Under the pieces are notes generated by a model that did no database searches, was not told the origin of the DNA, and saw only the letters and a list, made by a program, of their open reading frames with translations. Shown here piece after piece: positions 3,965-34,626 of a stretch of DNA of 40,079 bases. This DNA is from a virus. The stretch spans positions 1-40,079 of IMG/VR virus record IMGVR_UViG_3300044618_000932; one strand, given 5' to 3'. How positions within the stretch are numbered: position 1 is the stretch's first letter; each line of letters opens with the position of its first letter. A program made the position numbers and the translations under genes.

Positions 3965-4276
3965 TTATGGAAATTCTTTAAGCCAGTTTTTATGGGGGTC
4001 AAGACCATTGAGCTGTGATCGTTCTTTGGGGCTTTTGCCGCCAAATAAGCCGAATCTGCGCCATTGATCCTTTTCGTGGTGCATAGCAAAGGCAAGGCAC
4101 AATTCACGCACTTCACATCCGTTACAAAACTGTTTGCCTGGTTCATAAAGTTTCGGGCTGGAGTTGTGAGATTCTTCGGGGAAGAACATTTCTATCGGGA
4201 GCGTTTTACACGCGGCTTTGTCTTTCCACCAGACTGGGGCGAATTCGTGGTTTTTCGATGTTGGTGACATATGCAT
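3965..4276 (-). CDS. whiB-like: WhiB-family transcription factor (103 aa)
   Basis: This has the WhiB signature: four Cys that bind a [4Fe-4S] cluster (C23, then C51-x2-C54-x5-C60 in CNGCEVRELC), WW at 16-17 and a turn motif GLFGGKSPKER (76-86) that corresponds to the family's G[VI]WGG box plus basic tail. Family members bind the principal sigma factor region 4 and alter promoter choice; actinophage versions are known to repress host whiB genes or affect superinfection. Met 1 and Met 3 are both possible starts, neither with a strong ribosome site. The 5' end overlaps the upstream gene by 85 bases. This is the best marker of an actinobacterial host. Confidence 0.9.
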   Translation of the reverse strand: MHMSPTSKNHEFAPVWWKDKAACKTLPIEMFFPEESHNSSPKLYEPGKQFCNGCEVRELCLAFAMHHEKDQWRRFGLFGGKSPKERSQLNGLDPHKNWLKEFP

Positions 4277-4389: not shown

Positions 4390-6214
4390 GAAGATGCTCC
4401 GCTATCCATTGCGCTACTGGCGATGCGACACCGTTGCCACACATCTTGTATCGGGTGGTGTCAGAGTTTGTTGTTCCGTCAGCTCGATACAGAGTGTGGT
4501 TGTCAGGCCATCCCATTAGGCGTTCGCATTCAACTGGTGTAAGCCTGCGTACAACCATGTCTGCAAGTACACCTGTTGATTGTTTGGTGCCGGCACGAAG
4601 AGCCTGGTGAACAGGACCACCCAAGGCATCGTTGTATTCATCGTATGCTTCAACTACGAGGTGTTCTCCGCGTGATGAGGGTACGCCACCATCGCCACCT
4701 GATCGCAGCGTTGGTGCAATGTCGGTTTCAACGATTAATGATTCGCTTCCTCCAACTAGGTCGCCACCATTTGCTTTGAGTGTTCCTACACCTTCGGTGT
4801 ATTGGGCAAATGAAGTGGGTGTGTAGGAAACAGCTACGCCTGATGCGCTCATTGTGTCAAGCGTGTATGCAGGATCACCAGCGTTGCCGATGCCTGTTCC
4901 GTTTTGGTGTTTTTCAATTTCTCGTACATCGTCAATTGGTATTGCATCAGTAGCTACTGCTGGCACGAATGCGTTTGTGATAGTTGGTGATGGGTCACCA
5001 TCTTCGCCAACACCTAAACCTTGACGATTTTGACTGTCAAGTTTTTCAGGGTCACGCAAGGCATTTCGAGTATCAATCGGTATAGCGACTGCTTGACCTG
5101 CTCCACCTACACGCAATGTTGGGAAAGTTTCTTCAGAAGGTTGAGCATCGAGGCCTTGTGTGTGGCTAAAACCAATTGCGCTTGGCTGGAACAACACTTG
5201 ATCGTTACTGCCGGCGAGAGTTAACGAAGTATCCGAAAGCAGCGGACCTTTGCCACCGCCTGGTTTACCTTCACGCTGGCGCATCAACACGGGTTGCTCA
5301 TCAACGGCAACCATCGGAACGTTGTTGCCTCCTGTACCCATCCGCGACATCAAAGTTTGCACAGGCGATTCATAAATACGCACATCATCAACGCGTGTGC
5401 CATCAATCAACATTGGCTCAACAACAAGGTTGTAATGCTCGGAGCCACTAGGACCACCAGTACCTTTATGCCATTTAGATGTCACAGATGTAGTTAAAAC
5501 ATCATCATCAGTAGAACCAGCTGCCCAAGGCAACTCAGCTTCTACTCGTTGATTAGGTCTCCCGCTACCTGAATCAAAGCTTTCTCCAAGCGTGGAGGCA
5601 AGTGCTTTCCTCTCCTTGTTGCGCGTCGAAGTATTCCTGCGGCGGCCTTCGCTGACAGGTAATAACGCTTCTCCACCTCGTTTGAGGATTGAAGGATCGA
5701 AGCAAGCGATGACGAACACTCGTCTACGCCTTTGGGGGACTCCATAGAACTGTGCGTCCATGCAATGCCATTCGACGTGATGACCCCCGATGTTAACCAT
5801 TTCTTGGAGGACTGCGTCGAAGTCAGCTCCTTTGTTGGAGCTGAAGGCTCCAGCCACGTTTTCCCAAATAGCCCATCTTGGGTATTGTCCATTGGTTGCA
5901 TCTCTCATCTCCTTGATGATTCGTGTTGCTTCAAAGAAAAGGTTCGAACGAGAACCTTCCATAAGTCCAGCTCTTTTGCCGGCGAGTGATAAATCCTGGC
6001 ATGGTGAGCCAAAAGTAATTAGGTCAACTGGTGGTAGTTCTGCACCGTTAACTTCGGAAACATCCCACCACTTCGGCACTTCAGGCCAACGGTAAGTAAG
6101 TACTTCTTGGCAATGCTTGTCCCATTCAACCTGGAATCCACATTCCCAGCCTGCGTTATCAAATCCAATATCGAATCCTCCAACGCCAGCAAAAAGACTG
6201 CCGTAAGTTGGCAT
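4367..6214 (-). CDS. dcm-like: DNA (cytosine-5) methyltransferase (615 aa)
   Basis: It methylates cytosine C5 in DNA from S-adenosylmethionine, probably protecting phage DNA from host restriction. Motif I is LFAGVGGFDIGF (8-18), motif IV is GSPCQDLSLAGKR with catalytic Cys72, motif VI is WENV (117-120), motif VIII is QRRRRVFVI (161-169), and motifs IX-X are RRLTPVECERLMGW (~556-569) and CGNGVASPVAQW (~592-603). The stretch between motifs VIII and IX spans about 370 residues, far longer than in ordinary ~330-420 aa enzymes. It is built of recurring segments around TL-x-GG or PT-L/I cores (TLRVGG, TLKANGG, TLRSGG, PTITN, YTLDT), so the enzyme may recognise more than one target. The start overlaps the SSB stop (TGATG). 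No endonuclease partner is visible. Confidence 0.93.
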   Translation of the reverse strand: MPTYGSLFAGVGGFDIGFDNAGWECGFQVEWDKHCQEVLTYRWPEVPKWWDVSEVNGAELPPVDLITFGSPCQDLSLAGKRAGLMEGSRSNLFFEATRIIKEMRDATNGQYPRWAIWENVAGAFSSNKGADFDAVLQEMVNIGGHHVEWHCMDAQFYGVPQRRRRVFVIACFDPSILKRGGEALLPVSEGRRRNTSTRNKERKALASTLGESFDSGSGRPNQRVEAELPWAAGSTDDDVLTTSVTSKWHKGTGGPSGSEHYNLVVEPMLIDGTRVDDVRIYESPVQTLMSRMGTGGNNVPMVAVDEQPVLMRQREGKPGGGKGPLLSDTSLTLAGSNDQVLFQPSAIGFSHTQGLDAQPSEETFPTLRVGGAGQAVAIPIDTRNALRDPEKLDSQNRQGLGVGEDGDPSPTITNAFVPAVATDAIPIDDVREIEKHQNGTGIGNAGDPAYTLDTMSASGVAVSYTPTSFAQYTEGVGTLKANGGDLVGGSESLIVETDIAPTLRSGGDGGVPSSRGEHLVVEAYDEYNDALGGPVHQALRAGTKQSTGVLADMVVRRLTPVECERLMGWPDNHTLYRADGTTNSDTTRYKMCGNGVASPVAQWIAEHLLEFHTAL

Positions 6215-6597
6215 CAGAACGGCTCCTCAATTTCAGGGAACGCATTCTTTAATGTTGCGACATCGTCAGGATTGCTTCCGTCGCGCTTTCTCCAACGTGA
6301 AGACAAACCAGCTTCATCAACGATGATTTGTGTTTTCTTTTTTTCCACTCCATCTTTGCTGGTGTATTCCTTGATTTCGATACGACCGATAACAATCACA
6401 CGACTTCCTTTGGGGAACTCGTTGCAATAGTTTTCTGCTTGCTCACCGAATGCGACACAGTCAAACCAAGTGGTTTCTTCTTGACCGTTTGGTTTGCGGG
6501 TTACAGCAACACTGAAGTTTGCTACTGCATTACCTGATGATGCGAATCGCAATTCGGGATCACGCCCGATACGACCGACGATGTATATGTGGTTCAT
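6214..6597 (-). CDS. ssb: Single-stranded DNA-binding protein (127 aa)
   Basis: MNHIYIVGRIGRDPELRF, SGNAVANFSVAV, WFDCVAFGEQAENY, KGSRVIVIGRIE and KKKTQIIVDE are the successive strands of the bacterial-type SSB OB fold. It coats ssDNA in replication and annealing. I take ATG 6597 as the start because the fold begins there and GAAGGAACC precedes it; an upstream 39-residue extension is instead part of the Zn-ribbon gene in another frame. The C-terminus is short and acidic (EIEEPF), in place of the usual DDDIPF partner-binding tip. It likely works with the annealing protein and exonuclease genes upstream. Confidence 0.93.
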   Translation of the reverse strand: MNHIYIVGRIGRDPELRFASSGNAVANFSVAVTRKPNGQEETTWFDCVAFGEQAENYCNEFPKGSRVIVIGRIEIKEYTSKDGVEKKKTQIIVDEAGLSSRWRKRDGSNPDDVATLKNAFPEIEEPF

Positions 6598-6788: not shown

Positions 6789-7253
6789 TCAGCTGCCACT
6801 AGATCCACGCCAATGACCTATACCGCCATTGTCGTACAAATACTTTGCAACTTTTAGGTTGCAATCTGGCTTTTGAAGTACCAGCATTTTTCCAAATTCG
6901 TATTTGCACACTTTGGATGTGATGGTTTTGTGGCTGCTGTTAATTTGCATTAACCCAATGTCGTATGACTTGACAGCTTTGCATTTTCGGTAGGTGCGAG
7001 CGTGTGAAAGTTTGCAATCTCGATGACTCTTTCCTTTGTGGTAATTCCAACCAATAGCTTTCGGCTGGCATTTTGACTCACGCATCATGATTGGCGCAAA
7101 AATTTTGACCGGCAAACCATGCTTGCGTAGCGCGTCATGCCATTGTGGGCAGGGCAGTGGTTTGGGTGGTGTGTGATGGGCTTTCGCCGGTGCAGCTGTG
7201 AAGCCGATAGAGATGGATATGGACAGAAAAATTGTTGTGGTGATACGTTTCAT
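6789..7253 (-). CDS. Secreted lysozyme/transglycosylase-like protein (154 aa)
   Basis: The N-terminus MKRITTTIFLSISISIGFTAAPAKA is a clear Sec signal peptide (basic, hydrophobic, A-x-A at ~23-25). The mature part resembles the lysozyme/lytic transglycosylase fold: FAPIMMRESKCQP carries the likely catalytic Glu59, SYDIGLMQINSSH is the conserved Gln-Ile-Asn segment, and NLKVAKYLYDNGGIGHW is the C-terminal core. Six Cys in the mature region could give three disulfides, consistent with extracytoplasmic action on peptidoglycan. The start ATG is preceded by AAAAGGAGGGG, the strongest ribosome site of the region; a GTG one codon upstream is too close to it. Its place among recombination genes, away from the endolysin, is unusual. 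Confidence 0.8.
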   Translation of the reverse strand: MKRITTTIFLSISISIGFTAAPAKAHHTPPKPLPCPQWHDALRKHGLPVKIFAPIMMRESKCQPKAIGWNYHKGKSHRDCKLSHARTYRKCKAVKSYDIGLMQINSSHKTITSKVCKYEFGKMLVLQKPDCNLKVAKYLYDNGGIGHWRGSSGS

Positions 7254-7302
7254 CACCCCTCCTTTTGTTTGACGGACATGACATTTCGTCTTATGGTGGC
7301 TC

Positions 7303-12108: not shown

Positions 12109-12282
12109 CTAAATGTCGCCTTTGAGGTGGTCGTCGATGTGATTATCTAGCTTCACTTCGATTCGGTTAAGAGCCTGTCCGACAATTGCGTGATCGTCCC
12201 GGTTCTCTTTCCGCATCCCCTGCACCAGGGCTGCCAGAACACCGCCAACGGCAGCGACAACAGCCACAATGACGGCTTCCAT
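12109..12282 (-). CDS. Small membrane protein, holin candidate (57 aa)
   Basis: ATG 12282-12280 overlaps the TAA of the endolysin (TAATG) and the frame ends with TAG at 12109. Residues 2-21 are a hydrophobic Ala/Val-rich segment (EAVIVAVVAAVGGVLAALVQ), followed by basic and acidic residues and an amphipathic helix (AIVGQALNRIEVKLDNHIDDHL). One membrane segment and a charged tail, coupled directly to an endolysin, is a typical holin or lysis-accessory layout. Two further small membrane proteins nearby (13006-13176, 14222-14491) compete for the holin title. Confidence 0.75.
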   Translation of the reverse strand: MEAVIVAVVAAVGGVLAALVQGMRKENRDDHAIVGQALNRIEVKLDNHIDDHLKGDI

Positions 12283-12896
12283 TATGCAGGAACAAATGCA
12301 GGTGGGAATTCATCTCCGTAGCAGTATTGCCAATGCCACGCTTCGAACTCAGGGGACTTAGGATCTGCGGTTTGCATAAAGAAACCGTATCGAGGTGCGT
12401 TTTCACACATCCATTTCAATGCTTTCTTATCGGAAGCAAGTGCCAAGATTTGCCCTTTTTTATCTTCCACTGCTAAGTCAATTGCAAGACCCCAGCCATG
12501 ATTACTTCCACGCTTACCTGTCGGATCTGGTGCAGCTGAAGGAGCTTTACCTCGCTTTAAGAACCAGGTTTTGCCTTCGTATTGGCGTGTTACTTGTGGT
12601 TTACGACCCTCGTCTTTGAGGCTGTATCGGTCATTAAACATTGCTAGCTGGCCCTCAAAGGAACGGTAATCACCAATGTTCCTAAGGGTGATGCCTGCTT
12701 TTTTAGCTTCGTCGTACATCGTGTTAAACGCAAAGGCAGCGGTGGTGAACATTTTCCCACCAGTATTGACACGGGCAAGTAGTGACTTGTCTAAACGTCC
12801 ATTGATTTGCTTTTGGAGTGCTACTGGCAAAACCAGCTTTCTGTATGGGTATTTCATTCTTCGTGTCCTTGGTTTTTTCCTGTTACGTGCGGCCAT
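12282..12896 (-). CDS. Endolysin: VanY-type M15 D-alanyl-D-alanine peptidase (204 aa)
   Basis: Peptidase of the M15B/VanY family, cutting peptide stems of peptidoglycan to release progeny. The motifs are GDYRSFEGQLAMF (75-87), SNHGWGLAIDLA (131-142) with zinc ligands His133 and Asp140, and EFEAWHWQY (183-191) with the general base Glu185 and ligand His188. No signal peptide; the basic N-terminus (AARNRKKPRTRRMKYPYRK) suggests export through a holin. The start at 12896 is preceded by TTTGGGAGATATTC. No separate cell-wall-binding domain is visible. Confidence 0.92.
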   Translation of the reverse strand: MAARNRKKPRTRRMKYPYRKLVLPVALQKQINGRLDKSLLARVNTGGKMFTTAAFAFNTMYDEAKKAGITLRNIGDYRSFEGQLAMFNDRYSLKDEGRKPQVTRQYEGKTWFLKRGKAPSAAPDPTGKRGSNHGWGLAIDLAVEDKKGQILALASDKKALKWMCENAPRYGFFMQTADPKSPEFEAWHWQYCYGDEFPPAFVPA

Positions 12897-13005: not shown

Positions 13006-13176
13006 CTATTCCTCGGCTTCTACTCCGAGAACAATTGCAGCAATATTAAAACCAAGTGTTATAAAACTAATAATCATTGCTTTTCTTAATGTTTCACCTG
13101 ACAGCGTAATTAACACAAGACCTGTACCGGATGCCCATAGCACCAGCGACATTATGTGAGAGAAGTACTTACGCAT
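13006..13176 (-). CDS. Two-pass membrane protein, holin candidate (56 aa)
   Basis: ATG 13176-13174 to TAG 13008-13006. Two hydrophobic segments are evident: MSLVLWASGTGLVLITL (residues ~9-25) and MIISFITLGFNIAAIVLGV (~34-52), joined by the short polar turn SGETLRKA and ended by EAEE. A hairpin of two membrane helices in under 70 residues fits class II holins. It sits between the surface protein and the endolysin, in the same direction. No clear ribosome site is visible; the start lies 12 bases after the stop of the upstream gene, so reinitiation is possible. Confidence 0.7.
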   Translation of the reverse strand: MRKYFSHIMSLVLWASGTGLVLITLSGETLRKAMIISFITLGFNIAAIVLGVEAEE

Positions 13177-13188
13177 GGCCCGACTTTA

Positions 13189-14241
13189 TCATCTGCGTCT
13201 TGTCACTACAGGAGCGGCCATCATCACAGTGGTAATTGCAATAAGTGAGCGACGTTGCGATACCGGTATAGACGATCCGACAGGAACATAGGTGTCTGTG
13301 TTGCCAGCAAAGATGTCAATTTCTTCTTCGAAAGCTTCTCGAACTTCTTCGCTGGCTGACTGGACTGCTTCAACAATAGCTAAACCAGATTCGGGGGTTA
13401 AAGCTTCTTCGTCAATAGCGGCGAAGATTTCTTGGGCGACATCGGCGGTAGCTATTTCAAGTACCGCTGGGTTGGTAGCAAGCTCCGTGGCTTGTTCGTC
13501 ATTTAATCCGTCTTGAACCAGCGTCTGCAATTCCTCCAGCTGCGGAGCTATTGTTGTGGTCGTCGTCGTAGAAGGAGAAATCGTTGTTGTTACTAGCGTT
13601 GTTGTTGTGGTTGTTGTCGGTGGTGTTGTCGTGGTCGTTGTGGGTATTTGTTGAACGATTGTGGTGGTTGATGGTGGAATCGTTGTTGTCGTTTCGGGGA
13701 TGGTTGTCGTTGAAGTTGACGAAGTGGTTGTGGTGGTAGATGTTGAAGTGGTTGTTGTTGGTTCCGTTGTGGTTGGTGGCAAGGTGGATGGAATCGTTGT
13801 TGTTTGAGGAATGGGAAGAATAGTTGTCGTTGTTGTGGGTAACGGTGCAATGCTGGTGGTAACAGCTCCTTGGCCGTAGCTCAATTCATATTGGACATTC
13901 CAACCGTTACCTCCGCGCCACACGTCAGGTTCCCAGCAGCAAGTACCAGCTCTTAATCGGTATCTGCCGGGTTCTAACTGCATTGAGATGTAGGACTGTA
14001 AACCGTAGTAGTCGTCATTGGTGATTAACAGTTGACCGGTTTCGTTGTAGAGCCATAGTTGAGGATCAGAGTTGTACCCTGGAGACTGGTAGGTACGAGC
14101 AACAAACAAAGTTGGTTCGGTGTATTCAAACCAAATGTCTGTTGGTTCGGTGATAATTGGGTTTTCTGCGTTGGCGTTTGATGCCAGCAGAAATACAGAA
14201 GCCCCTATAAGAAAGAAAACCCTACTCAGTCGGGTGATCAC
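13189..14241 (-). CDS. Secreted membrane-anchored Thr/Pro-rich surface protein (350 aa)
   Basis: Residues 1-25 are a Sec signal peptide ending ASNANA. Residues ~26-125 form a beta-rich domain (WFEYTEPTLFVARTYQSPG, LWLYNETGQLLITNDD, MQLEPGRYRLRAGTCC) resembling pre-peptidase/DVUA0089-type domains. Residues ~130-235 are a low-complexity Thr/Pro stalk. Residues ~240-315 are an acidic helical domain. The end, SLIAITTVMMAAPVV plus TRRR, is a membrane anchor with a stop-transfer tail. The start is GTG 14241, overlapping the upstream gene by 20 bases. The layout says: exported, anchored in the host membrane, projecting through the wall. Candidate roles are superinfection exclusion, aid to lysis, or a virion-attached adhesin. 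No homolog is known to me. Confidence 0.8.
   Translation of the reverse strand: MITRLSRVFFLIGASVFLLASNANAENPIITEPTDIWFEYTEPTLFVARTYQSPGYNSDPQLWLYNETGQLLITNDDYYGLQSYISMQLEPGRYRLRAGTCCWEPDVWRGGNGWNVQYELSYGQGAVTTSIAPLPTTTTTILPIPQTTTIPSTLPPTTTEPTTTTSTSTTTTTSSTSTTTIPETTTTIPPSTTTIVQQIPTTTTTTPPTTTTTTTLVTTTISPSTTTTTTIAPQLEELQTLVQDGLNDEQATELATNPAVLEIATADVAQEIFAAIDEEALTPESGLAIVEAVQSASEEVREAFEEEIDIFAGNTDTYVPVGSSIPVSQRRSLIAITTVMMAAPVVTRRR
13560..13860. repeat. Low-complexity Thr/Pro-coding repeat
   Basis: Irregular runs of GTTGTTGT, GTGGTGG and similar (ACA/ACC/ACG Thr codons on the coding minus strand) encode the stalk of the 350-aa surface protein. Units are not identical, and synonymous Thr codons are mixed, which should limit replication slippage. 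Confidence 0.85.
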
Positions 14242-14491: not shown

Positions 14492-14542
14492 TTGAAGCTC
14501 CTTGGTAGGCCCTTCAATCGCTGTAGGTTAGCACACGGGAGT

Positions 14543-15661
14543 CTACGGGATACTGTAGGCAACAGCCGCTTGGGAAATAAAACGGATGTTGAACCTGATA
14601 GTTCCTGACAGTTTGCTGGCGTTATTGAAGTTAAACCAGCCACTTCCTTGGGGGTCTACACGGTAGGACGTGTCGGCGTAGTTGGTAAATACGCTTGAGT
14701 CGTACCCGTTGCTCACGTAGGGAGTACCACTCAAGAGCACATTGGTTCCTGGCTTGTCAAGTTCAATGTTTCGTGTTGCAGAAGTAATCTGGCTGGCGAA
14801 GTTGACAGACAAGTTGCGGAACTGGTACGAGTCTACGATTGTTCCAAAAGCATTGTAGTTAGTGCTGAACGTAGAGAACGTACCGATACCTGGAACTGTG
14901 TATCTTTCTTGGTCAGCCCATGCTTCAAATGAATAGTCATCTGTTCTTGCCGTACGGATTTGCGGACGACCCGCGTTGACGGTCTTTGTGTTAGACCATG
15001 CACCAAAGTAATTAACAGAGTTGTGTGTAACGTATGCTCGCCAAACTATGTTGACTGAAGCATCCTGACTTAAACCAAACTGTTTTGATGTCGAACCTAA
15101 AGTTTCAGCAACATTTGAACCGTTGTCGTATGAGTATTGGTAACCAGTTGCGTTAGCTACAGCCACACATGAAGTACTAAAGACAATTTGGTTTCCGTTC
15201 CACGAGTCATTTACATAACCCCAATCCGTTACCAGTGAAGCAGAAGTAGTAGTACCACCAACAGTTGCATTAACTGTTCCACAACTTATTTGAGAAGTTT
15301 CTGTAGCCCCAGCATAAGCAGAAACAGTGTATGCGTAATCGGTTTGCATGGCCGGCACGACATCAGTAGTGCTAGTACCGCTAGTAACATTCTTAACAAA
15401 TGTCCCGTTGCGATAAAGTTTGAAACCTTCCTGCCCGACACCAGCAGTCCAAGAAATAGTTGCTGTCACATGAGAAATACTGGAAGTACCAGATGTAGGT
15501 GCAGTCAATCGAACCCACACCTGCTTCCATGTGCCCCCATCTTTAACGTAAACATCAGAGGCTAAACGCCAAGTGCCACTCAAGTTCCCTTGTACAGCGT
15601 TCCAGTCTTTCCATGATCCACTGAGATAAGCCTTCGGGGAATGACCGTTGACACCAGGCAT
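14543..15661 (-). CDS. Tail/fibre protein with Ig/FnIII-like domains (372 aa)
   Basis: The N-terminus PKAYLSGSWKDWNAVQGNL and VYVKDGGTWKQVW is the kind of short virion-anchoring segment seen at the head of phage fibre proteins. Residues ~53-135 read as a fibronectin III-like domain (APTSGTSSISHVTATISW, GFKLYRNGTFVK, YTVSAYAGATETS). Further beta-rich modules fill the remainder (YQYSYDNGSN, VNIVWRAYVTH, and so on). Low charge and many Ser/Thr/Gly suit an exposed adhesin. It is the last structural gene before the lysis set and overlaps the stop of the preceding fibre gene. Minor tail protein or receptor-binding fibre is the best label. Confidence 0.75.
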   Translation of the reverse strand: MPGVNGHSPKAYLSGSWKDWNAVQGNLSGTWRLASDVYVKDGGTWKQVWVRLTAPTSGTSSISHVTATISWTAGVGQEGFKLYRNGTFVKNVTSGTSTTDVVPAMQTDYAYTVSAYAGATETSQISCGTVNATVGGTTTSASLVTDWGYVNDSWNGNQIVFSTSCVAVANATGYQYSYDNGSNVAETLGSTSKQFGLSQDASVNIVWRAYVTHNSVNYFGAWSNTKTVNAGRPQIRTARTDDYSFEAWADQERYTVPGIGTFSTFSTNYNAFGTIVDSYQFRNLSVNFASQITSATRNIELDKPGTNVLLSGTPYVSNGYDSSVFTNYADTSYRVDPQGSGWFNFNNASKLSGTIRFNIRFISQAAVAYSIP

Positions 15662-16485
15662 TAAATTACCTTAACCCAAATGTCGCCATTCTTCCCGCCG
15701 GTAGGGTCACTAGTAGAAACAGTTGTCTGTGGAACAGTCGCGTAATCAATCTTGGCGTTCGTCACATTAGCGTCAGCAATCTTTGCTGTGGTCACAGAGT
15801 TAGCAGCTAACTTGGCTGCTGTCACACCTAAATCTTTAACACGCACAGCATCGCTTTGAATTTCAAGAGTTGAATCATCAACGTTGACAGCTAGTGCGTC
15901 ACCTGCACCTCCAACCAAACCAGATCCCGCAACTTCAGAAGCAACTTTTGCAGCTGTAACAGAAGCATTAGCAAGCTTTGCTGTACTAACAGCGAGGTTG
16001 TCAATTTTTGCTGTAGTGATAGCAACATCGGCAATGCCTACTGTCCCAACTTGGCCCCAAGCAGGATCGTTAGCACCGATTACAAGCGGATGGCCTTGTG
16101 TTCCCTTGGTAAGTTCCTCAAATGTGGATGCACCTTGGTAGACAATAGAGCCACGGTTTGCATACTTGGCTGTAAGTTCATTAGCTTCGTTGGCATCGAT
16201 TGCTGTAAAGACTGGGTAAATGGTTGCACCGGATGCGTGAGATGAAGCAGAAGTTCCGTCAACACCCCGTGAAACAATCGTCAAGGTGTTGCTTGACAAG
16301 GTCACGAGCATCTTTTCCTCGGAAGAAGTTTGAGGCGAGAGAACAACATAAAATGGGATAGTCGTAGAAGTAGACCAGTTGGTAGAAGCAGCAATACTAA
16401 AAGTCGTAACGCCAGAAGCGGCTATAGACCCCGTCAAAGTAGAAGCTACAGCCCCACCTGCAAACTGTCGACGTACTTTAGCCAT
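15661..16485 (-). CDS. Tail fibre/stalk protein with TTAKI-type repeats (274 aa)
   Basis: The first ~110 residues form a compact Ser/Thr-rich beta domain (FYVVLSPQTSSEEKMLVTL). From ~150 on, a degenerate repeat of the type (I/V)-(T/S)-TAK-(I/L)-A-(N/D) recurs: ITTAKIDNLAV, VSTAKLANASV, TAAKVASEVA, TAAKLAANSV, TTAKIADANV, TNAKIDYATV. This repeat is common in trimeric phage fibres that build beta-helical stalks. The end, TSDPTGGKNGDIWVKVI, is a typical short phage fibre cap. The start at 16485 has TTGAGGAGTAAATA upstream. Confidence 0.82.
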   Translation of the reverse strand: MAKVRRQFAGGAVASTLTGSIAASGVTTFSIAASTNWSTSTTIPFYVVLSPQTSSEEKMLVTLSSNTLTIVSRGVDGTSASSHASGATIYPVFTAIDANEANELTAKYANRGSIVYQGASTFEELTKGTQGHPLVIGANDPAWGQVGTVGIADVAITTAKIDNLAVSTAKLANASVTAAKVASEVAGSGLVGGAGDALAVNVDDSTLEIQSDAVRVKDLGVTAAKLAANSVTTAKIADANVTNAKIDYATVPQTTVSTSDPTGGKNGDIWVKVI

Positions 16486-19253: not shown

Positions 19254-20291
19254 TCATAGACGATAGAACACCATGTTGTTTTGAAGCCTTTCATTATTGG
19301 GTTCCATGCTCAAAGCAAGCAGTCCGTGCTTCTCTGCTTCCTTTTGGAAGCCAAGCTTGTATGACGAGTACGCCATCAAGTCATGCACTAAGGAACCCCA
19401 AGCAAAAGCTTCGCAGAGATAGTCAAGTGGTTTCTCTGTGATAATTAAAGCCCTGTCGCAGGCCGATTTGCATCGAACCCAATCTTGGCGGTTGTAATAC
19501 AGTTGCGCCAACTCCACCCATGCTTCTCGTCTGTCGGGGCATTCAGCAACAGCCAAATAGAGGTGATGTTCGGCAGCATCAGGCCTCATCTTTGCCATGT
19601 ACCGGTGCGAAGCTGCGCGTTCAGGGTTCCAACGGGACAGCTTCAAATGTTCGGAAAAATGGTATTGAGCTAGTCCATGTTGTCCGTGGAAGAAGTATTC
19701 ACGGGCTAGGTAGAACTGGTTGCGATCATCGCTTGGTTCTTCTTCTACAGCTAGTTTCAGTAGGGGTAGGTATTGGCTGCGGGATTTGGTGTGGTCAGGA
19801 TGATGATGGATTTCTAACCCGTCAACCCAATACTGGTTTTCTACACCGTCGTATTTGAGAACTTCATGGACTGGGTGTTTCCATTTGTAGCCATGTCGGG
19901 CGTGGATTTTGTCGCCACCATAGGTGAGTCCTTCGGATCCGTCTTCGTTCCATGACCAAATGTATTTGTATCGGGGTCGGGTCACACCTTCAGGTATGGC
20001 TTCTAGGGCTTGTCGCCAGCCTGGTTGTAGGACTTCATCTACGTCTAGCCATATCACATAGTCAGCGTCATCGGGGATGAGACTCATGGCGTGGTTGCGG
20101 GCGTGGTCAAACCGCCAAGGGTCGATTTTTCTGATGTGGGTTTCAACGCCCATCTTGTTTGAGAGGACTACGGTTGCATCGGTGGAAAGTGTGTCCACCA
20201 AGATCCGGTAGTCAGCTTCTTTACATGATTCGGCCCATCGTGCTACGAACTGTTCTTCGTTTTTAGCGATGGTTGCTACAGCTATTTTCAT
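19254..20291 (-). CDS. Glycosyltransferase family 2 with TPR tail (345 aa)
   Basis: GT2 fold: IAVATIAKNEEQFVARW at the N-terminus, LVDTLSTDAT, WRFDHARNHAM, and YVIWLDVDEVLQPGW with the metal-binding D-x-D. The C-terminal ~150 residues contain helical TPR-like repeats (AEHHLYLAVAECP, AWVELAQLYYNRQDW, AEKHGLLALSMEPNNE). I start at ATG 20291, behind GAGGGGCA; an upstream in-frame TTG six codons earlier is weaker. It transfers a sugar from a nucleotide sugar, probably to a virion or host protein. Lying between fibre and tail genes, it is likely part of a virion-glycosylation pair with the enzyme at 23526-24608. Confidence 0.88.
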   Translation of the reverse strand: MKIAVATIAKNEEQFVARWAESCKEADYRILVDTLSTDATVVLSNKMGVETHIRKIDPWRFDHARNHAMSLIPDDADYVIWLDVDEVLQPGWRQALEAIPEGVTRPRYKYIWSWNEDGSEGLTYGGDKIHARHGYKWKHPVHEVLKYDGVENQYWVDGLEIHHHPDHTKSRSQYLPLLKLAVEEEPSDDRNQFYLAREYFFHGQHGLAQYHFSEHLKLSRWNPERAASHRYMAKMRPDAAEHHLYLAVAECPDRREAWVELAQLYYNRQDWVRCKSACDRALIITEKPLDYLCEAFAWGSLVHDLMAYSSYKLGFQKEAEKHGLLALSMEPNNERLQNNMVFYRL

Positions 20292-20312
20292 TGCCCCTCT
20301 TTTCTTCAATAT

Positions 20313-20731: not shown

Positions 20732-22906
20732 TTATACCTTGATAATAAAGTTGAAAGCAAGGAACGGGTTGGTTACATCTAGTGGGTTGTTCGCAAATCC
20801 ACCGTTACCACTAGAGCCAGTAAAGTTTGCCAAGTCGGTAGAGTGACTGTGTGCCGCACTGCGCCCACCAGTGCCAAAGTTGTGTGTGTGACCAGATGAA
20901 ACGGTATTGCTGTTGTATTGAGCAGGATAACTACCATCGGCAGTGTACGCTAAGAACCCTCCACCAGCATATCCAAACAATCTAATACCAATAGCATGAA
21001 CATGGTTTTGATTTATGTCGCCAGTAGTTCCACTATGGCTATGGTCGGCAGATTCCGTACCACTAGAAGTAGCAGGATGGTCATGGTCAATAGCGTGAGT
21101 GTGTGTCGGCAAGTTAGCGGAGTTAATCGTCTTAGACTCACCACCACCAGCAGTACCCAAAGCACGGTTAGTTAAACCAGTACCAGTACCCGCACCAATA
21201 GGCATACGACTACGAGTATCAGGCAAATTAAACGTAGTAGAACCATTACCCGCACCAAAAGTGACACCGATAGCAGTGAACAAATCAGCGTATGTCGTTC
21301 GATCAACTGCCGTACCGTCACAAGCCAACCATCCAGTAGGAATAGTTGAACCTGCATACATTTGCACAGTTCCAGCAGGAGTTACTGTTCCTGTCGGACC
21401 TGTCGAACCAGTCGGGCCTGTCGCACCTGTCGGACCGGTAGGACCCTGTGGACCTGTAGGACCATCGTTACCTTGAATACCTTGAGCACCCTGAATACCC
21501 TGTGGACCCTGAGCACCAGTAGGACCAGTAGGACCCGTCGCCCCGTCAGTACCATTTGTTCCTGTTGCACCAGTAGGACCAGTAGGACCAGTTGCGCCGA
21601 CAGAACCAGTAGCACCCGTAGGACCCGTGTCTCCTGTTGCACCAGTAGGTCCTGTCACAGTAGAAGCCGCACCAGTAGGACCAGTAGCACCAGTAGGTCC
21701 TGTAGGTCCAATGTTTGCAATTACTAGCAATACGTCAAGACCATCAGCAAAACCTGTCGTGCCTGTACCACCTGAAGAAACAAAAGAAACAGGAATATCA
21801 ATCCAAGAGTTCACGTGATCCGTAACGGTTCCTGACACAACAAATCTTTGAACGTTTGCAGAGTTAGCAGAGTCTTGGATATAGATAGTGTCGTTCGGTT
21901 TTAAGATCGCCAAGAACAAGTCAATGTCAAAACCGTCTTGGTCAATGTGGTTTATTTGTAGCTGTGTCGCAGATGTTTGCGTTGCATTGTTGTACGCCAA
22001 CAAGCCAGTTCCAGGGTTACCTGATGTGGTGTTGGTATCAATCAGATACTCATAGAAACTTGAAGACTGTCCTTGTGGGCCTGTGGGTCCCGTAGGTCCG
22101 GTGGCTCCTGTAAGCCCTGTAGCCCCTGTAGGTCCTGTCGCCCCAACCTCAGCCATCAACGCCCATTCAAAAGGATTAGCACCAGGGGTTTTACCAATAT
22201 TCGGGAAGATAACACTAACCCAAGAAGAACCATTATAGGAAACAACGTCATTCAAATCGTAGTTTGTTGCAGCGTTCCATGGACCTTCCCAAACGAAACT
22301 TGCACCTGTCGGTCCTGTAGGTCCCGTAACAGTTGAATCTGCACCTGTCGGTCCTGTAGGTCCCGTAGGTCCTGTAGGTCCTGTTGGTCCATCGTTTCCT
22401 TGGACACCTTGGATACCTTGAGCACCTGTTGGTCCTTGTGCACCAGTAGGTCCAGTGGGTCCGATAGGTCCTGTAGGTCCAGTTTCTCCCTGTGGACCAG
22501 TAGGACCAGTAACACCCTGGATACCTTGCGGCCCAGTAGGTCCAGTAGGACCTTGTGCGCCAGTAGGTCCTGTGACACCTTGTGGTCCTGTGACACCTTG
22601 AATACCCTGTGCACCCGTAGGTCCTGTAGGGCCTTGTGCGCCAGTTGGACCCGTAACGCCTTGAATACCCTGCGCGCCTGTAGGGCCAGTTGATCCTGTA
22701 GGACCAGTAACACCTTGGATACCTTGAGCACCCTGCGGTCCTACCGCACCTTGCGGTCCAGCTTGTGAAGTTCCCACCACAACAACACGATTACCGACAG
22801 ACAAAGGAACATTAGAATCGGTAAGTGCAACAACATACTGATTGTCTTTACGGTAAACGGTAGTTGTCTCGTTTGAAATCGCAACTGTGACGCTGGTGGT
22901 CGCCAT
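20732..22906 (-). CDS. Collagen-like tail fibre with C-terminal phage tail collar domain (724 aa)
   Basis: Three blocks of G-x-y triplets, rich in GPT and GPQ (about residues 50-200, 255-280 and 400-515), should form a collagen triple helix. Between them are beta domains (residues ~203-250, starting with [19 protein letters not shown], and ~285-395). The C-terminus from ~517 is a phage tail collar domain: [20 protein letters not shown] and [14 protein letters not shown]. It then carries many H-x-H pairs ([24 protein letters not shown]), like metal-binding sites in T4 short tail fibre proteins. It is the main receptor-binding fibre candidate. A chaperone and a glycosyltransferase gene follow. 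Confidence 0.93.
21362..22740. repeat. Collagen-coding triplet repeats
   Basis: Two main clusters (21362-21712 and 22300-22740) and a short one (22070-22142) of 9-base units based on GGNCCNACN on the coding strand. Third bases vary, so the DNA units are not identical, but recombination between blocks could still change fibre length. Confidence 0.85.
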
Positions 22907-23253: not shown

Positions 23254-23526
23254 TCACCACTTTACCTTATTTGCCCAGTACGCCGCCGACATTTTACCCT
23301 TAGCAATATTTTTTGCATGGCGCGCCTTGAAAGATTCGCGGCGTTTCCGATAGGCCTCAGATTCTCCTGATTTCTTAGGCGAACCAGAAACGCCCTGCTG
23401 TCCAAACCTAATAAGTTTTACTTGGTCACCTTCTTTGGCAAGAACAGCGTGTGACTTAGATGCGTTCGGGGTGCGCTTAGGTTTGTTGTAGCCAGCAAAC
23501 TTTTCGCCTCGATATTCAATAGCCAT
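23254..23526 (-). CDS. Small basic phage protein (90 aa)
   Basis: Strongly basic. The core VKLIRFGQQGVSGSPKKSGESEAYRKRRESFKARHAKNIAKGKMSAAYWANKVKW has the RR-SF-ARH ... YW--K-W pattern of a family of small proteins widespread in marine and actinobacterial phages (I recall it as DUF6321-like). No function is established that I know; the basic charge suggests nucleic-acid contact in the virion. The start overlaps the preceding stop by one base. Confidence 0.78.
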   Translation of the reverse strand: MAIEYRGEKFAGYNKPKRTPNASKSHAVLAKEGDQVKLIRFGQQGVSGSPKKSGESEAYRKRRESFKARHAKNIAKGKMSAAYWANKVKW

Positions 23527-24608
23527 TAGATCTCCAAAACTTTTGCATCAGATAACACCTGAAGAACACCTTCAGGTACTTGGTACTCTACCCCAGGCAA
23601 AAAGTCATAGTGGGCGCGTCCGATATCGCAAGACATCTTTTTCTTTACCTTAATAGGGACAGTCACAACAACAGGTTCCCAAATTGGGTCTGCTAATAAT
23701 GTCCCAACTGGCACAGCTTCAAGCAAAGCTTTGGTGGCTTTACGCCATGACCAAGCCGATGCTGATTTGGCATTGACAGAAGCTTCGCTTTTGTGGTTGC
23801 TCCAGTTCCGATAATGGTCCAACATCAGCTCACACAACTCATCAAGGTTAGGTTCATCCCAGTTGCCAATAGTCATAGCAGGACTACGGGTAGTGGATAC
23901 AACCCCGGTAGCAAGATAAGAAAACTGTTCTTGGCCTGTCGTGTCTGAAATAATTGTTGGCATACCCAAAGAAATAGATTGCAACGGCATCAACCCAAAA
24001 CCCTCACCACGGGACGCAGCTATAAAAACATGGCCTTGCCTAAACCATTCACGCTGGGTTTCTTCATCCATCCATTTACGGTGCATCACAATACGAGGAT
24101 GCTTCACATCGGGGGTGTCATTGGCATGAGGCGCAGCTTTAATATGTAGTTCCGCATCGGGCAGGTTTAGACGTTGAAAAGCTTTAACAACAACATCTAA
24201 ACCTTTACGGAACCATAATGAACCGCCGGCAAGAAACTTAAACGGCCCATCAGGTTCTGTGTAACCAGACCAAAACTTATTATCTACACCTAGCGGAACC
24301 ATACGTACATCAGAATGATGTTGACTAAACAGTTCAAGGTTGTGTTGGCACGGCACAATAATTTGGTCGTATCTTGGAAGCCACCGTAAAAAATTGTTAG
24401 GTAACTGATCCGTTTCCCACATCGTAAAAGAAGCTCGATGTTGACCAGATGTAAAACCCCTTGGACCATCAGGGGTGTTCATGTAAACCAAAACAGAAGC
24501 ATCATTATCTAGCGTTACTGTTTTCGGTAGGGCAGATTTAAAGCCGGCAAGCATTGAGCCATAACCAAACTTTGGGTCTTCAACCCCTTGCCAAGATTGA
24601 AAGTTCAC
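23526..24608 (-). CDS. Glycosyltransferase, GT4-type (360 aa)
   Basis: GT-B fold: the donor-binding half has PLGVDNKFW, FKFLAGGSLWFRKGLDVVVKAF, and the diagnostic FIAASRGEGFGLMPLQSISLGMPTI, with the E-x7-E-like signature of family 4. The N-terminal acceptor half includes FTMWETDQLPNNFLRWLPRYDQI. A short C-terminal extension (VKKKMSCDIGRAHYDFLPG) has beta character. Translation starts at GTG 24608, overlapping the upstream TGA (GTGA). It lies with structural genes upstream of the fibre and is likely to work with the GT2 enzyme on a virion protein. Confidence 0.88.
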   Translation of the reverse strand: MNFQSWQGVEDPKFGYGSMLAGFKSALPKTVTLDNDASVLVYMNTPDGPRGFTSGQHRASFTMWETDQLPNNFLRWLPRYDQIIVPCQHNLELFSQHHSDVRMVPLGVDNKFWSGYTEPDGPFKFLAGGSLWFRKGLDVVVKAFQRLNLPDAELHIKAAPHANDTPDVKHPRIVMHRKWMDEETQREWFRQGHVFIAASRGEGFGLMPLQSISLGMPTIISDTTGQEQFSYLATGVVSTTRSPAMTIGNWDEPNLDELCELMLDHYRNWSNHKSEASVNAKSASAWSWRKATKALLEAVPVGTLLADPIWEPVVVTVPIKVKKKMSCDIGRAHYDFLPGVEYQVPEGVLQVLSDAKVLEI

Positions 24609-29766: not shown

Positions 29767-32700
29767 TTACTCCAATTCAGCCTGAAACTCTTGTTCCCAA
29801 ATACGCCTAAAATCAGGATTAATAGTAGCAAGTTCTTCACCACGCTCAAATAAACTCTTGCGGTAATCAATAGCAGTTGGGTTTTTTTCTGCAGCCAAAG
29901 AAACACCAGCCTTTTCTTTCAACATATTTATTGCTTGTTCACGGTTTTTTAAATATTCACGGATTGTATTTGCAACTGGATCATTTGCAGTACGTTGATC
30001 AGCAACCAGTTCGTTTACATCAGCAATAAATCTCTTAAATTCGTTGGGATCAAATTTTGCATCGATAGGAAAACCGTTAAAGTTTTTATGAATTCTTTCA
30101 CGCTCTGCCTTTTTTTCCGCAGCAGTAGCATTGGGATTTTTCTTACGGAAATCACGATACAAATACGAACCAACGCGCAACTGAGCTTGCTCCAAACGGT
30201 CAACAGGGTCGTTACGGCGGCGTATTCCAGCATTTAATTGTCGCGACCAAACCGGCATAGACAAAGCACCATCGCCAATAGGCGCAAGATAAGGAGCTAC
30301 GGACTTGTGAGAACGAACCAAATCGGAGTTTTTATTTTCCCAAAGTCCGTAAGCTTCCGAAGCCTCAACACCCTTATAACGTGGATCAAGAGTTGTCTTT
30401 GCACCGATATATACAACTGCGCTTTCACCAAAAGTGTCAATGAACTTTCCAATAGCTGTTTCATAATCTTCGGCTTGCCAAATTTGAAACTGTTTTACCA
30501 TTTCATTTACATAGAAATACTCTGAAAGTTTTTCTTCAGTTCTCATTCTGTAGTCAGGACGTGCAGCTGTCGGTCCAATAAATTGAGACAAAGCACGTAA
30601 CATTGTTAAAGGCCTTGCTTTTGTTTTTGCGTCGTCATGTAAACGAGCTACATCTTCAGAATCATTTAAGTTGTATTCACCAGTTGTACTCATATATGCA
30701 AACAAGTCTGCATAAGTATTCCCATACATGGTCGACAGTTCGTCGGGGCTGTCACGTATCGCTGATAATGCTTTTGTAAAAGAACCTGGCAAAAGGTTTT
30801 CCAACGAAGCGTCACCATAAGGATTGACTAATTTACGGAATGAGTCAGTATCTGGAATATTAAAAGCGTTAAATACTTCAGTTGCAGCAATTTGGAACAT
30901 TGGCCCAACAGAAGGAATGATAGCTAAACCAGCAGAAAGACGCTTTACTGGCGCAGAAAGATTAATACCTTCTTCACCGGTAATTGCTTTAATGATTTGT
31001 CCGGAAAGAGGGAACGTAAACATCATGTCATTAGTAATGGGGTCTTTGTAGATGATTCCACGGCCATCATTGTCCGGATCAAACCCTTCAAGACCCCGGT
31101 AAATCTTTTGCACTTTACGAATTCTTGCTGGATTTTGAAGAAGTTCTCTTGAGTAACGACCGGCTACTTCAGCCCACGCAGCACCAAATGGGGCGATAAC
31201 TCGGAAAGCATCAGTTAAGTTACTTCGTTCAACATTATTGAAAAACAATTCTTCTAAATCAACTTTCGTTCGCGTTGATGCATATGTGTTTAACTGTTCA
31301 ACAGTACCGACACCCGTTCCCTTTGTAATTGCTTCGTCTGTATTGACAAGTATTTGATCGTAAAACTTACGACCACCAACATAAATCTCAATAGCTTTTT
31401 CAGGATTAACAGCATAAACATCGGGCAGTGTGCGCGCAGCATATGTGTCTAGGTCATCAAGCAAACGTTTAGCTTCATCGGCAGACAAAAGACCGGCGTT
31501 TTCGGAAACATTTTTATAGTAAGCAAAACGGAAAGCAGGAGAGCGTTCAGCAAGTTCTGTGAATTTTTGTACCGGCACATCAAAAAACCATTTTGGTATA
31601 GCTGCAAAAGCTTTAAGGGCATCACGGCCACGATATGAAATTCCATCATCAACCACAGGTTTAGTGCGGATCATTGTCCTAGTCCAAGTAGGGAGCAAAG
31701 GATTATTTCCGATATTCATTGCTTCTTTGTGCGCTGTGCGACGTTCATCAATAAATCGACGTGCGCTCATTGAAAAATCGTCACCGTTTAAAGCTGTTCC
31801 GACATCCGTGACTTCAATAACCTTATAAGAATCTGCACCTGGAACCTTGTTAACTTCAAGAACTAAAAAGTTTTTAAACTTTGGTATTCCACTAGGACCT
31901 GTTATATCTTGAACAAGCAGTTCTCCAGCCTTGGGCTTTTTCCCTGTTACAGAAAATCTCATTACTTCTGTTTCATCCCATAGTTCAGAAGCACCAGCAG
32001 GTACGGCGTTGTAACCAGCCAAAACACGAAGTTCGTCAGCACCAAGAGTTAAATTATCGATTTGACCACGAGCAGCAATATCAAACCAGGCTTCTACAAG
32101 CTCACTGTTTGTCATATTGTCTGCATTGGAAATCGGTGCAGAAATTTTATTTAAACCATTATTGATGTCACCAGTTAAGGGGCCATCTTTAAAGTAGCCA
32201 ACAAGTGTGTCACGAGCCTTTACTGCATCATCAGTGCCCTTGTTTAGCCAGTCAACAGCAATTTGAAGTTGACGATCTTGAGGAAGATGTTGAACTTGTG
32301 TCATTAAACGCAAGAAAGGATCGGCATAGGCCTGACGTGCACTATCAAGCCAACCAGTAGTGTAAGCAGAATCGCTAGTATTCACTACTGCTGCTTCACC
32401 AGACCTAACCATACGCATAAGTTGATCTGCTGGATCTTCGACTAGATATTTGCTTTTTTGATTTACAAAACTAATGTAATCCTGCATATCTTCAGCAACA
32501 TCAAAAATGTCTTCTCCTTCATTTACAAATACGCTTCCACCGATAGTACCTGTAGCTCGTTTACGCATCGCAATCAATATGTATTGAAGAGGGTCACTAA
32601 AAAACCCATTCAGACCAAGACGTAGCTGTGCGTCCATTGTGTTGCGCATGATATATCCGATAGATAAAAGCGCATAAGGCTTCCACAAATCATTTTGAAT

Positions 32701-34626
32701 CCACTCTGCAACTGCACTTGCTTGAAGTTGGCGACCATCAGGTGTTAACTTCCACAAGTCATTATTAGTCAAACGACGCAATTGACGAGGATCAGGAAGA
32801 ATCTGAACATTATTCAACATATCCGAAATGGCTAATGGACCAAAAGTTGTTAATTCGCCTTGCCCTAAGTTATAAACAACATCATCTAAATCAGCGCGGG
32901 TCATACCAGCTACTACTTTGCTTGGATGTGTTTCTTTAAGCAAATCGAACAATTCGGTATCAGTCATAAACTGTGTCATGTGCTTAATAAATCCAGCATC
33001 ATCAGTCATGCCATGTTCGTCAATAGCATTTTTTCTAAGAGTATCTATTCCTGAACGGAATTTTTCAACAACTTCTTCAATTACTTTTTGGTCAACTCCC
33101 TGAGCTTCAAGAGCTGTCCAAACAATTCCTTTTTCTTTACGAGGAACGTCGCCCATAAACATACGAAACATTTGGTCAGCGTCAACGCGTGTCCCGGATG
33201 TTCCAGCCCAGTCGAAAGCTTTATCAATTAACTTTTTTCCGTCACCAGAATACGGATCAACTTTTAGAACTTTTAAATAATTTTCAATGTTAAAAATTGC
33301 TTGCACTTTTTCTTGATCAGTACCATGAACAATTAAAGTGTTTTTAGGAACTTTAGAAAACCACATACTTCCACGGAGTGTGTTATATCCAGGTATTTTT
33401 TCTACAAGATTCATTCCCGCAATAGGCAATTCTCCTGATTGTGAAGCAAAAGGAACAAAACCTTGCTTAGTTTCATCAGACAAACGAATAGCTTGCTCAG
33501 CGATAATGCCACGAACTTGATCAGTGTCAGAAACAGAAGCCAAACGACGAGCTTGTTCCGGGCTTAGTTTTCCTCCATAAGCACGAAGAATTTTCAAAGG
33601 GTCAGATTCGTCTGCGGTGCGTTGAACAACTCGTCGGCCACTTGCAGAATTATCAAGCCAGTTAAAAAATTTACTGTTATCAATTGCGTGTTGTTCTGCC
33701 GTAGAAAGCAAACCCATACTTCCGGAAGCAAGTTTACGAGCAGCTGATATTTCGTCTGCTGTTTTCAAGCCTTCAATTGCTTTTCCTGCTTTAACAGATT
33801 TAGCTGCAACTTCAAGAGGCTTACTGACAGGATCGGCATACCACGCAATAGAAGCATCAATTAACCCAGATAAAAAATTATATGGTTTAGATCCAGGAGC
33901 AGAAACTATGTTTGCTGTACCGCGGCCAACAGTATAAGACTCGCCATTTATTTGCCAGCGAAATTGCTTAACTTTCTCTACGCGTTTTTTTTCTGCTTCA
34001 CCAGCAACAAAAAAACCTTCACCGGCTTGATCACCATTTTGAAGTAACGCTCCTAGAGAGGTTGAGGCAAACATTCCTTCAGGAAGGAATGTTCCTTTGT
34101 TCCATCCACCCCATCCCCAATCTTTTCCTTCTACACCAAATTTTTCTTCAGCGTTGGGATCGGTTCTAAGCGAACCATAGTTTGCAATATATTGAGGTAC
34201 GGATTCAGCAGCAGCAGTTACGTATCGAGAAGCTGTTTTGAGTTGATCAACTTTGCCAATGGTATTACCTAAAGTCCATTTAAGCGCGTTAAAAACGCCT
34301 TGCTTAACATTTGGAACCCAACTTTTTTTGGCATACGGGTCTAGCCTGGGATCCGGTGGGTTTTCAACAGGTTTTTCTGTGTTTGCACGACGAAGATAAG
34401 CATTTTGTGCAGACCTTTTAGCAGCAGCATTGATTGTTTCAGGGTCAGCACCAGCTTCAGCTAAAGCCAAAACCACTCCGGTTTCCATGTATGGATGAAC
34501 CTTGTAAATGTCAGCAATGCGTTGAGAAATAATTGAGTCGTTTTTATTTACAGTTTTTTCAGAATTAATTCTGCTAGCTACATCAGAAAAAAGACGCTGT
34601 TGGTCGCGCTTGTCAATCCAGCTCAT
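29767..34626 (-). CDS. Giant internal virion / ejection-type protein (1,619 aa)
   Basis: One uninterrupted frame taking about 12% of the genome. It is rich in charged helices with scattered hydrophobic stretches, e.g. PYALLSIGYIMRNTMDAQL (~655-675) and SAGLAIIPSVGPMFQIAAT (~1220-1240). A C-terminal block reads DAFRVIAPFGAAWAEVAGRYSREL ... RKVQKIYRGLEG ... DPITNDMMFTFPLSG, a pattern I associate with very large virion proteins of short-tailed phages. It is not tape-measure-like (no long coiled coil). No transglycosylase or protease motif is convincing. Likely a T7 gp16-type ejection protein in role; homology is unproven. Start and stop overlap or abut the neighbours. Confidence 0.7.
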   Translation of the reverse strand: MSWIDKRDQQRLFSDVASRINSEKTVNKNDSIISQRIADIYKVHPYMETGVVLALAEAGADPETINAAAKRSAQNAYLRRANTEKPVENPPDPRLDPYAKKSWVPNVKQGVFNALKWTLGNTIGKVDQLKTASRYVTAAAESVPQYIANYGSLRTDPNAEEKFGVEGKDWGWGGWNKGTFLPEGMFASTSLGALLQNGDQAGEGFFVAGEAEKKRVEKVKQFRWQINGESYTVGRGTANIVSAPGSKPYNFLSGLIDASIAWYADPVSKPLEVAAKSVKAGKAIEGLKTADEISAARKLASGSMGLLSTAEQHAIDNSKFFNWLDNSASGRRVVQRTADESDPLKILRAYGGKLSPEQARRLASVSDTDQVRGIIAEQAIRLSDETKQGFVPFASQSGELPIAGMNLVEKIPGYNTLRGSMWFSKVPKNTLIVHGTDQEKVQAIFNIENYLKVLKVDPYSGDGKKLIDKAFDWAGTSGTRVDADQMFRMFMGDVPRKEKGIVWTALEAQGVDQKVIEEVVEKFRSGIDTLRKNAIDEHGMTDDAGFIKHMTQFMTDTELFDLLKETHPSKVVAGMTRADLDDVVYNLGQGELTTFGPLAISDMLNNVQILPDPRQLRRLTNNDLWKLTPDGRQLQASAVAEWIQNDLWKPYALLSIGYIMRNTMDAQLRLGLNGFFSDPLQYILIAMRKRATGTIGGSVFVNEGEDIFDVAEDMQDYISFVNQKSKYLVEDPADQLMRMVRSGEAAVVNTSDSAYTTGWLDSARQAYADPFLRLMTQVQHLPQDRQLQIAVDWLNKGTDDAVKARDTLVGYFKDGPLTGDINNGLNKISAPISNADNMTNSELVEAWFDIAARGQIDNLTLGADELRVLAGYNAVPAGASELWDETEVMRFSVTGKKPKAGELLVQDITGPSGIPKFKNFLVLEVNKVPGADSYKVIEVTDVGTALNGDDFSMSARRFIDERRTAHKEAMNIGNNPLLPTWTRTMIRTKPVVDDGISYRGRDALKAFAAIPKWFFDVPVQKFTELAERSPAFRFAYYKNVSENAGLLSADEAKRLLDDLDTYAARTLPDVYAVNPEKAIEIYVGGRKFYDQILVNTDEAITKGTGVGTVEQLNTYASTRTKVDLEELFFNNVERSNLTDAFRVIAPFGAAWAEVAGRYSRELLQNPARIRKVQKIYRGLEGFDPDNDGRGIIYKDPITNDMMFTFPLSGQIIKAITGEEGINLSAPVKRLSAGLAIIPSVGPMFQIAATEVFNAFNIPDTDSFRKLVNPYGDASLENLLPGSFTKALSAIRDSPDELSTMYGNTYADLFAYMSTTGEYNLNDSEDVARLHDDAKTKARPLTMLRALSQFIGPTAARPDYRMRTEEKLSEYFYVNEMVKQFQIWQAEDYETAIGKFIDTFGESAVVYIGAKTTLDPRYKGVEASEAYGLWENKNSDLVRSHKSVAPYLAPIGDGALSMPVWSRQLNAGIRRRNDPVDRLEQAQLRVGSYLYRDFRKKNPNATAAEKKAERERIHKNFNGFPIDAKFDPNEFKRFIADVNELVADQRTANDPVANTIREYLKNREQAINMLKEKAGVSLAAEKNPTAIDYRKSLFERGEELATINPDFRRIWEQEFQAELE

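Follow-up and report, generated by a model that had tools for sequence, protein, structure and literature searches.

A probable two-part surface-display device with exchangeable lectin-like heads, common to phages and Acidimicrobiia

Several phages encode membrane-bound proteins that face the outside of the host cell and stop superinfection, among them Ltp and Sie2009 (PMC4737114). Ltp of TP-J34, Sie2009 and the host protein CwpV all sit on the outer face of the membrane, and Ltp is a small lipoprotein that acts after adsorption (PMC4737114). A second group of phage membrane proteins regulates lysis. In mycobacteriophages this is done by LysF1b, with one helix in an N-out/C-in orientation, and LysF1a, with two helices in an N-in/C-in orientation, and pairs of this type are frequent in M. 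smegmatis phages (PMC13056207). Here we describe a pair of genes, encoding a stalked protein and a small two-helix membrane protein, in an IMG/VR virus record of 40 kb that carries terminase, portal and capsid genes; the whole stretch analysed (40,079 nucleotides) is referred to as the window. The likeness to the superinfection-exclusion proteins lies in the predicted membrane-bound position on the outer face and in the proposed purpose; these proteins have no stalk, swappable lectin head or two-helix partner. In LysF1a and LysF1b, too, a one-helix N-out/C-in protein is combined with a two-helix N-in/C-in protein in a lysis cassette. LysF1b, however, is a small protein whose helix is N-terminal and whose cytoplasmic tail is charged, and it has neither head nor stalk nor described cellular homologs (PMC13056207).

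The stalk-protein gene is confirmed as a real gene encoding a protein of four modules, and it is positioned after the tail gene block (Table 1). A first-pass annotation had described a signal peptide, a beta domain with adjacent cysteines, a Thr/Pro stalk, an acidic helical domain and a hydrophobic end with RRR, all of which were found. A start resembling a signal peptide is present in 84 of 86 complete relatives; the other two seem to be damaged or truncated frames. The 111 residues of the stalk include 57 Thr, 16 Pro and 10 Ser, and all four Thr codons are used (ACA 26, ACC 14, ACG 13, ACT 4); the stalk is therefore no simple DNA repeat. Against the nearest relative we obtained dN/dS values of 0.04 for the head, where dS is saturated, 0.07 for the C-terminal domain and 0.06 for the partner gene, and all three are under strong purifying selection. 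These low ratios, together with more than 200 relatives, mark the stalk protein as more than a chance reading frame.

Table 1 Features of the stalk-protein locus in the window
Feature	Position	Strand	Basis and remarks
Stalk-protein gene	13189..14241	(-)	350 aa, GTG start; 20-base overlap with the end of the upstream gene
Signal peptide, residues 1-25	14167..14241	(-)	MITRLSRVFFLIGASVFLLASNANA, AxA-type end
Head, predicted PPC/collagen-binding-type beta domain, residues 26-124	13870..14166	(-)	AlphaFold2, Foldseek, swap boundary
Thr/Pro/Ser stalk, residues 125-235	13537..13869	(-)	Composition
Conserved acidic helical membrane-proximal domain, ~residues 236-329	13255..13536	(-)	Alignment and AlphaFold2
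RR, short hydrophobic segment and RRR end, residues 330-350	13192..13254	(-)	Sequence; RR invariant in relatives
Upstream holin-like membrane protein, 89 aa	14222..14491	(-)	PHROG family phrog_26427
Two-helix membrane protein, 56 aa, TLSG motif	13006..13176	(-)	phrog_29041; directly downstream of stalk gene
Endolysin, VanY/M15 D-Ala-D-Ala peptidase	12282..12896	(-)	Downstream; PF02557 E 5.6e-18
Small one-helix protein	12109..12282	(-)	3' of endolysin; from sequence

The protein ends in RRSLIAITTVMMAAPVVTRRR, and residues 330-350 are predicted to form a membrane anchor with N-out/C-in topology. Given the signal peptide and this hydrophobic end, the protein is expected to be exported and anchored in that orientation. 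The uncharged hydrophobic run covers only ~16 residues, which is short for a membrane helix and counts against display at the surface; in an AlphaFold2 model of the C-terminus of a relative, the corresponding RR-hydrophobic end forms a helix of 23 residues. A sortase anchor was rejected, as the C-terminus has YVPVGSSIPVSQRR and LPXTG is absent. SEA-like autoproteolysis at the GS of YVPxGS was dropped as well, since the G varies among relatives and structural support was nil. Matches to PMT-type O-mannosyltransferases were found in 17 of 61 genomes searched from the Acidimicrobiia family discussed below, and several anchor-bearing genomes among them gave no match. The occurrence is patchy, and O-mannosylation of the stalk by PMT therefore has no general support.

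The head is predicted to adopt a PPC/collagen-binding fold. AlphaFold2, run with 23 relatives, returned an all-beta fold (pLDDT 92.5), for which Foldseek identified the PPC/collagen-binding domains 5sv5, 4hpk and 1nqd (probability 1.00, TM 0.6-0.65), with 5sv5 matched at probability 1.00, TMq 0.65 and E 2.5e-3. All 23 aligned relatives keep the adjacent cysteine pair unchanged, and Asp residues and a YRLR motif are invariant in the same alignment. A Pfam search with the head gave no match, and a sequence-profile search of the PDB found no chain. The NCBIfam model NF038127 (DVUA0089 family) scored the window head at 24.4 bits, below its sequence cut-off of 29, and matched the heads of 20 of the 23 relatives, with a best E of 3e-9. 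The predicted fold resembles those of ColG s3b and the PPC domain of B. anthracis collagenase at 16% identity, but the protein that carries the head has no peptidase. From the fold and the domain names, and from these only, we suggest that the head may bind sugars.

Relatives were gathered through the C-terminal domain, giving 81 and then 209 viral loci; the searches were seeded with patterns, and the frequencies reported here describe the set found, not nature. The plan stays the same throughout the 103 distinct proteins: a head, then a Thr-rich stalk with a median length of 168 residues, then the helical domain, and last a hydrophobic stretch preceded by RR. What varies is the head, which belongs to the PPC type in 37 cases, PA14 in 29, an unknown class in 15, SUEL/LCCL in two and single types in three; these classes were taken from trimmed heads, a first clustering having been spoiled by stalk sequence. 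The heads are interchangeable modules swapped among near-identical phages. Two contigs, L002 and L003, share 94.7% identity over 8.4 kb starting at the stalk and running downstream, and one carries a PPC head whereas the other carries a PA14 head. In a second pair (L063 and L069) the heads differ and the upstream 3.4 kb is retained at 88.6% identity. In the phage genome collection the only relative was in DSL-LC01, where it is annotated as hypothetical. We found no literature on a phage-encoded surface lectin or an Acidimicrobiia RCC1 surface protein, and the two main freshwater actinophage papers mention neither lectin nor PA14.

Heads that swap as receptor-binding proteins do, in a gene that follows the tail block, would also suit a virion protein, in which case the product would decorate the tail or capsid, reaching the particle despite its signal peptide. 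We regard this as very improbable, because the signal-peptide-like start is kept in nearly all complete relatives, the partner is a membrane protein, homologs are chromosomal and one head swap left the upstream tail genes unchanged. As a separate observation, the tail genes at 14534-15996 of the window diverge in DNA among the window, L002 and L003 between flanks that are 82-90% identical, which is likely to reflect receptor-binding variation.

The two-helix protein is an obligate partner of the C-terminal domain. Among the 103 phage relatives, every two-gene form with sufficient flank (92 of 92) has it directly downstream, nine have it fused by way of a disordered linker to the C-terminus, and two are cut too short to be assigned. 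A reverse search started from the two-helix protein, in which some loci lay on contigs already found and the query was independent, located the C-terminal domain upstream or fused in 77 of 78 loci; the last is cut and has no upstream sequence. An independent library confirms the fusion, since its family phrog_29041, which carries no functional assignment, matches the 56-residue protein of the window with E 3.6e-8 and, with E 1.8e-5, the C-terminus of the DSL-LC01 protein. AlphaFold2 modelled a fused relative as a compact helical domain (pLDDT 94-98) followed by the RR-hydrophobic helix, a disordered linker and a helical hairpin. Obligate pairing and fusion together lead us to propose that the two-helix protein is the membrane half of the anchor and that the two proteins pair physically.

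The alignment of relatives defines the helical domain by the motif AxxEVREAFEEEI...D.YVP.GS.IPV, and the window carries the two sequence hallmarks of the anchor family, namely an EVREAFE..D.YVP..RR helical domain and a downstream partner with TLSG. A structural search of the PDB with the C-terminal domain retrieved no resembling solved structure. In BFVD the domain matched models labelled 'uncultured Caudovirales', for example A0A6J5SZ50 (PA14) and A0A6J5P167 (FN3), which are uncharacterised entries; nine entries had E <0.001, with up to 47% identity. One variant deviates from the plan. On a phage contig that was binned together with an Acidimicrobiaceae MAG (L155:4893-5975 and 5972-6385), the protein keeps the PPC head, the stalk and a hydrophobic end of RR type, but a different segment stands in for the conserved helical domain; the two-helix protein here has an additional N-terminal domain.

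The notion of a phage-only domain was dropped. Although a pattern scan of 84,980 species genomes gave no relative, HMM searches found chromosomal copies. The C-terminal domain was detected by profile in six of 395 genomes from the class of an Acidimicrobiaceae MAG, and a longer profile matched 16 of 201 genomes of that Acidimicrobiia family. About 14 of these carry the domain, leaving out the MAG whose phage contig L155 gave the group (G001) and a genome with the two-helix protein only (G793). In a sample of the phylum two of 396 genomes matched, both from the same family. The cellular copies lie on contigs of up to 120 kb beside IMPDH, GroEL, VTT-domain and glyoxalase-like genes. These neighbours look chromosomal, although binning errors may occur among MAG contigs. 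Some copies are fused (L169, L170, L172, L173, L190 and others) and some are in two genes (L171, L193, L194 and L195-L197), of which the last three end in RRRED and are followed after a few bases by the two-helix gene, the layout seen in the window.

Like the window protein, the chromosomal proteins (L169-L174, L189-L197) have a signal peptide, the helical domain with RR, a TLSG partner, fused or separate, and in most cases a Thr-rich stalk. They differ in that several have much larger heads of other types, including RCC1 repeats, DUF4082 and DUF285/BspA, and in lying away from phage genes; they are uncharacterised. The exported and anchored plan of an adhesin or receptor, proposed at first from the window alone, is supported by this comparison, in which the RCC1-, BspA- and DUF4082-headed relatives make a surface location firmer. 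The search for the architecture in phages and hosts that had been suggested thus yielded both the 103 phage relatives and chromosomal Acidimicrobiia copies. The plan itself was right, and the accompanying idea of a possible new phage type was half right, as the anchor is common to host cells. The obligate partner, the modular exchange of heads and the sharing of the anchor with hosts were absent from that annotation.

In a tree built from 107 columns the host sequences fall in three places among the phage sequences, and the direction of transfer cannot be read from it. This would suggest either that transfers between host and phage took place more than once or that the order lies beyond the resolution of 107 columns. 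The phage is aquatic, and its hosts are probably Acidimicrobiia, because cellular homologs were found only in one family, a related phage contig (L155) was binned with a MAG of that family, and the window has a gene for a WhiB-like protein (3965-4276, minus strand), recognised by eye from its Cys pattern.

The placement next to lysis genes also held, with a holin-like gene upstream and a VanY/M15 endolysin downstream. The 'nuclease' label of phrog_26427 looks wrong for an 89-residue protein, and a holin fits both sequence and position. The small one-helix protein beyond the endolysin is possibly a second holin-like protein; its match to XhlA was at chance level only. Both flanks were available for 66 distinct loci. 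In 59 of these the device has a holin-like or M15 gene near it, with M15 downstream in 49 and holin-like homologs upstream in 23 and downstream in 25. The remaining seven (L035, L079, L039, L109, L096, L082 and L084) have no recognised lysis gene beside the device, and in three of the seven sugar-enzyme-like genes adjoin it. Downstream of the device in L035, L039 and L079 we noted by eye glycosyltransferase-like, PhyH-like and methyltransferase-like genes, not lysis genes. The device thus often travels with late lysis genes, while its fixed partner is the two-helix protein.

This neighbourhood raises the question of whether the pair controls lysis, with the head sensing an outside ligand or arriving phages and thereby delaying or triggering a holin-like two-helix partner. 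The parallel in topology with LysF1b and LysF1a (PMC13056207) makes this the main structural rival, and the fusion of the partner in nine forms is in keeping with it, as are the lysis genes in 59 of 66 loci. We nevertheless consider it unlikely. The pair also occurs on chromosomal contigs with RCC1 and BspA heads, seven phage loci have no recognised lysis gene adjoining, the window and 48 of 66 loci have a holin-like gene besides the pair, and LysF1b has no large outer domain. The window pair does lie in a lysis cassette, as LysF1a and LysF1b do, but its family is not confined to such cassettes, given the chromosomal pairs and the seven loci. Assignment to the lysis machinery by position is weakened by the same loci and chromosomal copies. 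These copies argue against a basic function in lysis, but phages could have reused the device. An extended version, in which the swappable lectin head reports on the surroundings or on arriving phages and times lysis via the conserved membrane-proximal domain and the obligate two-helix protein, with another signalling job in uninfected Acidimicrobiia, seems to us still more doubtful.

We consider it probable that the stalk gene and the small downstream gene form a two-part surface-display device common to lytic phages and Acidimicrobiia, acknowledging that the 59 loci beside lysis genes would also fit a role in lysis. The signal peptide would export the stalk protein across the membrane, with the hydrophobic end remaining within it, and the two-helix partner (N-in/C-in) would make up the half of the anchor on the membrane side. 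By means of its Thr-rich stalk the protein would hold the lectin-like head, here of PPC type, off the cell. Made late with the holin and endolysin, the device would be displayed on the infected cell and coat it with a sugar-binding-type head that is exchangeable among phages.

As to purpose we can only guess. Our preferred guess, with somewhat less than an even chance, is that the head keeps further phages from adsorbing or injecting by masking or disturbing surface glycans; a second and less likely one is that infected cells or debris are made to adhere. The protein matched no PADLOC model, and a known defence protein was rejected. A pure adhesin on the same anchor, whose heads bind other cells, algae or particles and cause clumping with no role against other phages, is rather unlikely. 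The PPC, PA14, SUEL and LCCL heads on a long stalk and the adhesin-like heads of the chromosomal relatives are what such a protein would have, but the gain for a lytic phage shortly before lysis is not obvious. The present data do not separate an adhesin from receptor masking.

If the display reading is correct, the helical domain and its two-helix partner, split or fused, would represent a new type of bacterial surface anchor common to phages and their hosts, on which phages exchange lectin-type heads as modules. It would also give phages of the poorly cultured aquatic Acidimicrobiia a concrete route to alter the surface of infected cells. The family offers hints to function for hundreds of phage proteins now labelled hypothetical, and the anchor could serve to mark the hosts of phages in which it occurs. 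The chromosomal RCC1, DUF4082 and BspA surface-type proteins with the anchor constitute an uncharacterised family of their own.

Elsewhere on the minus strand of the window we noted by eye two glycosyltransferase-like genes within the structural block (19254-20309 and 23526-24608), which could act on surface or virion sugars, and a collagen-like protein (20732-22906) that has long runs of GPTGPTG and whose end is tail-collar-like. A 1619-residue protein adjoining the portal genes (29767-34626) had no PHROG match. Distant from the lysis block, the same strand encodes an SLT-type transglycosylase with a signal peptide (6789-7256; PF01464, E 8.6e-7).
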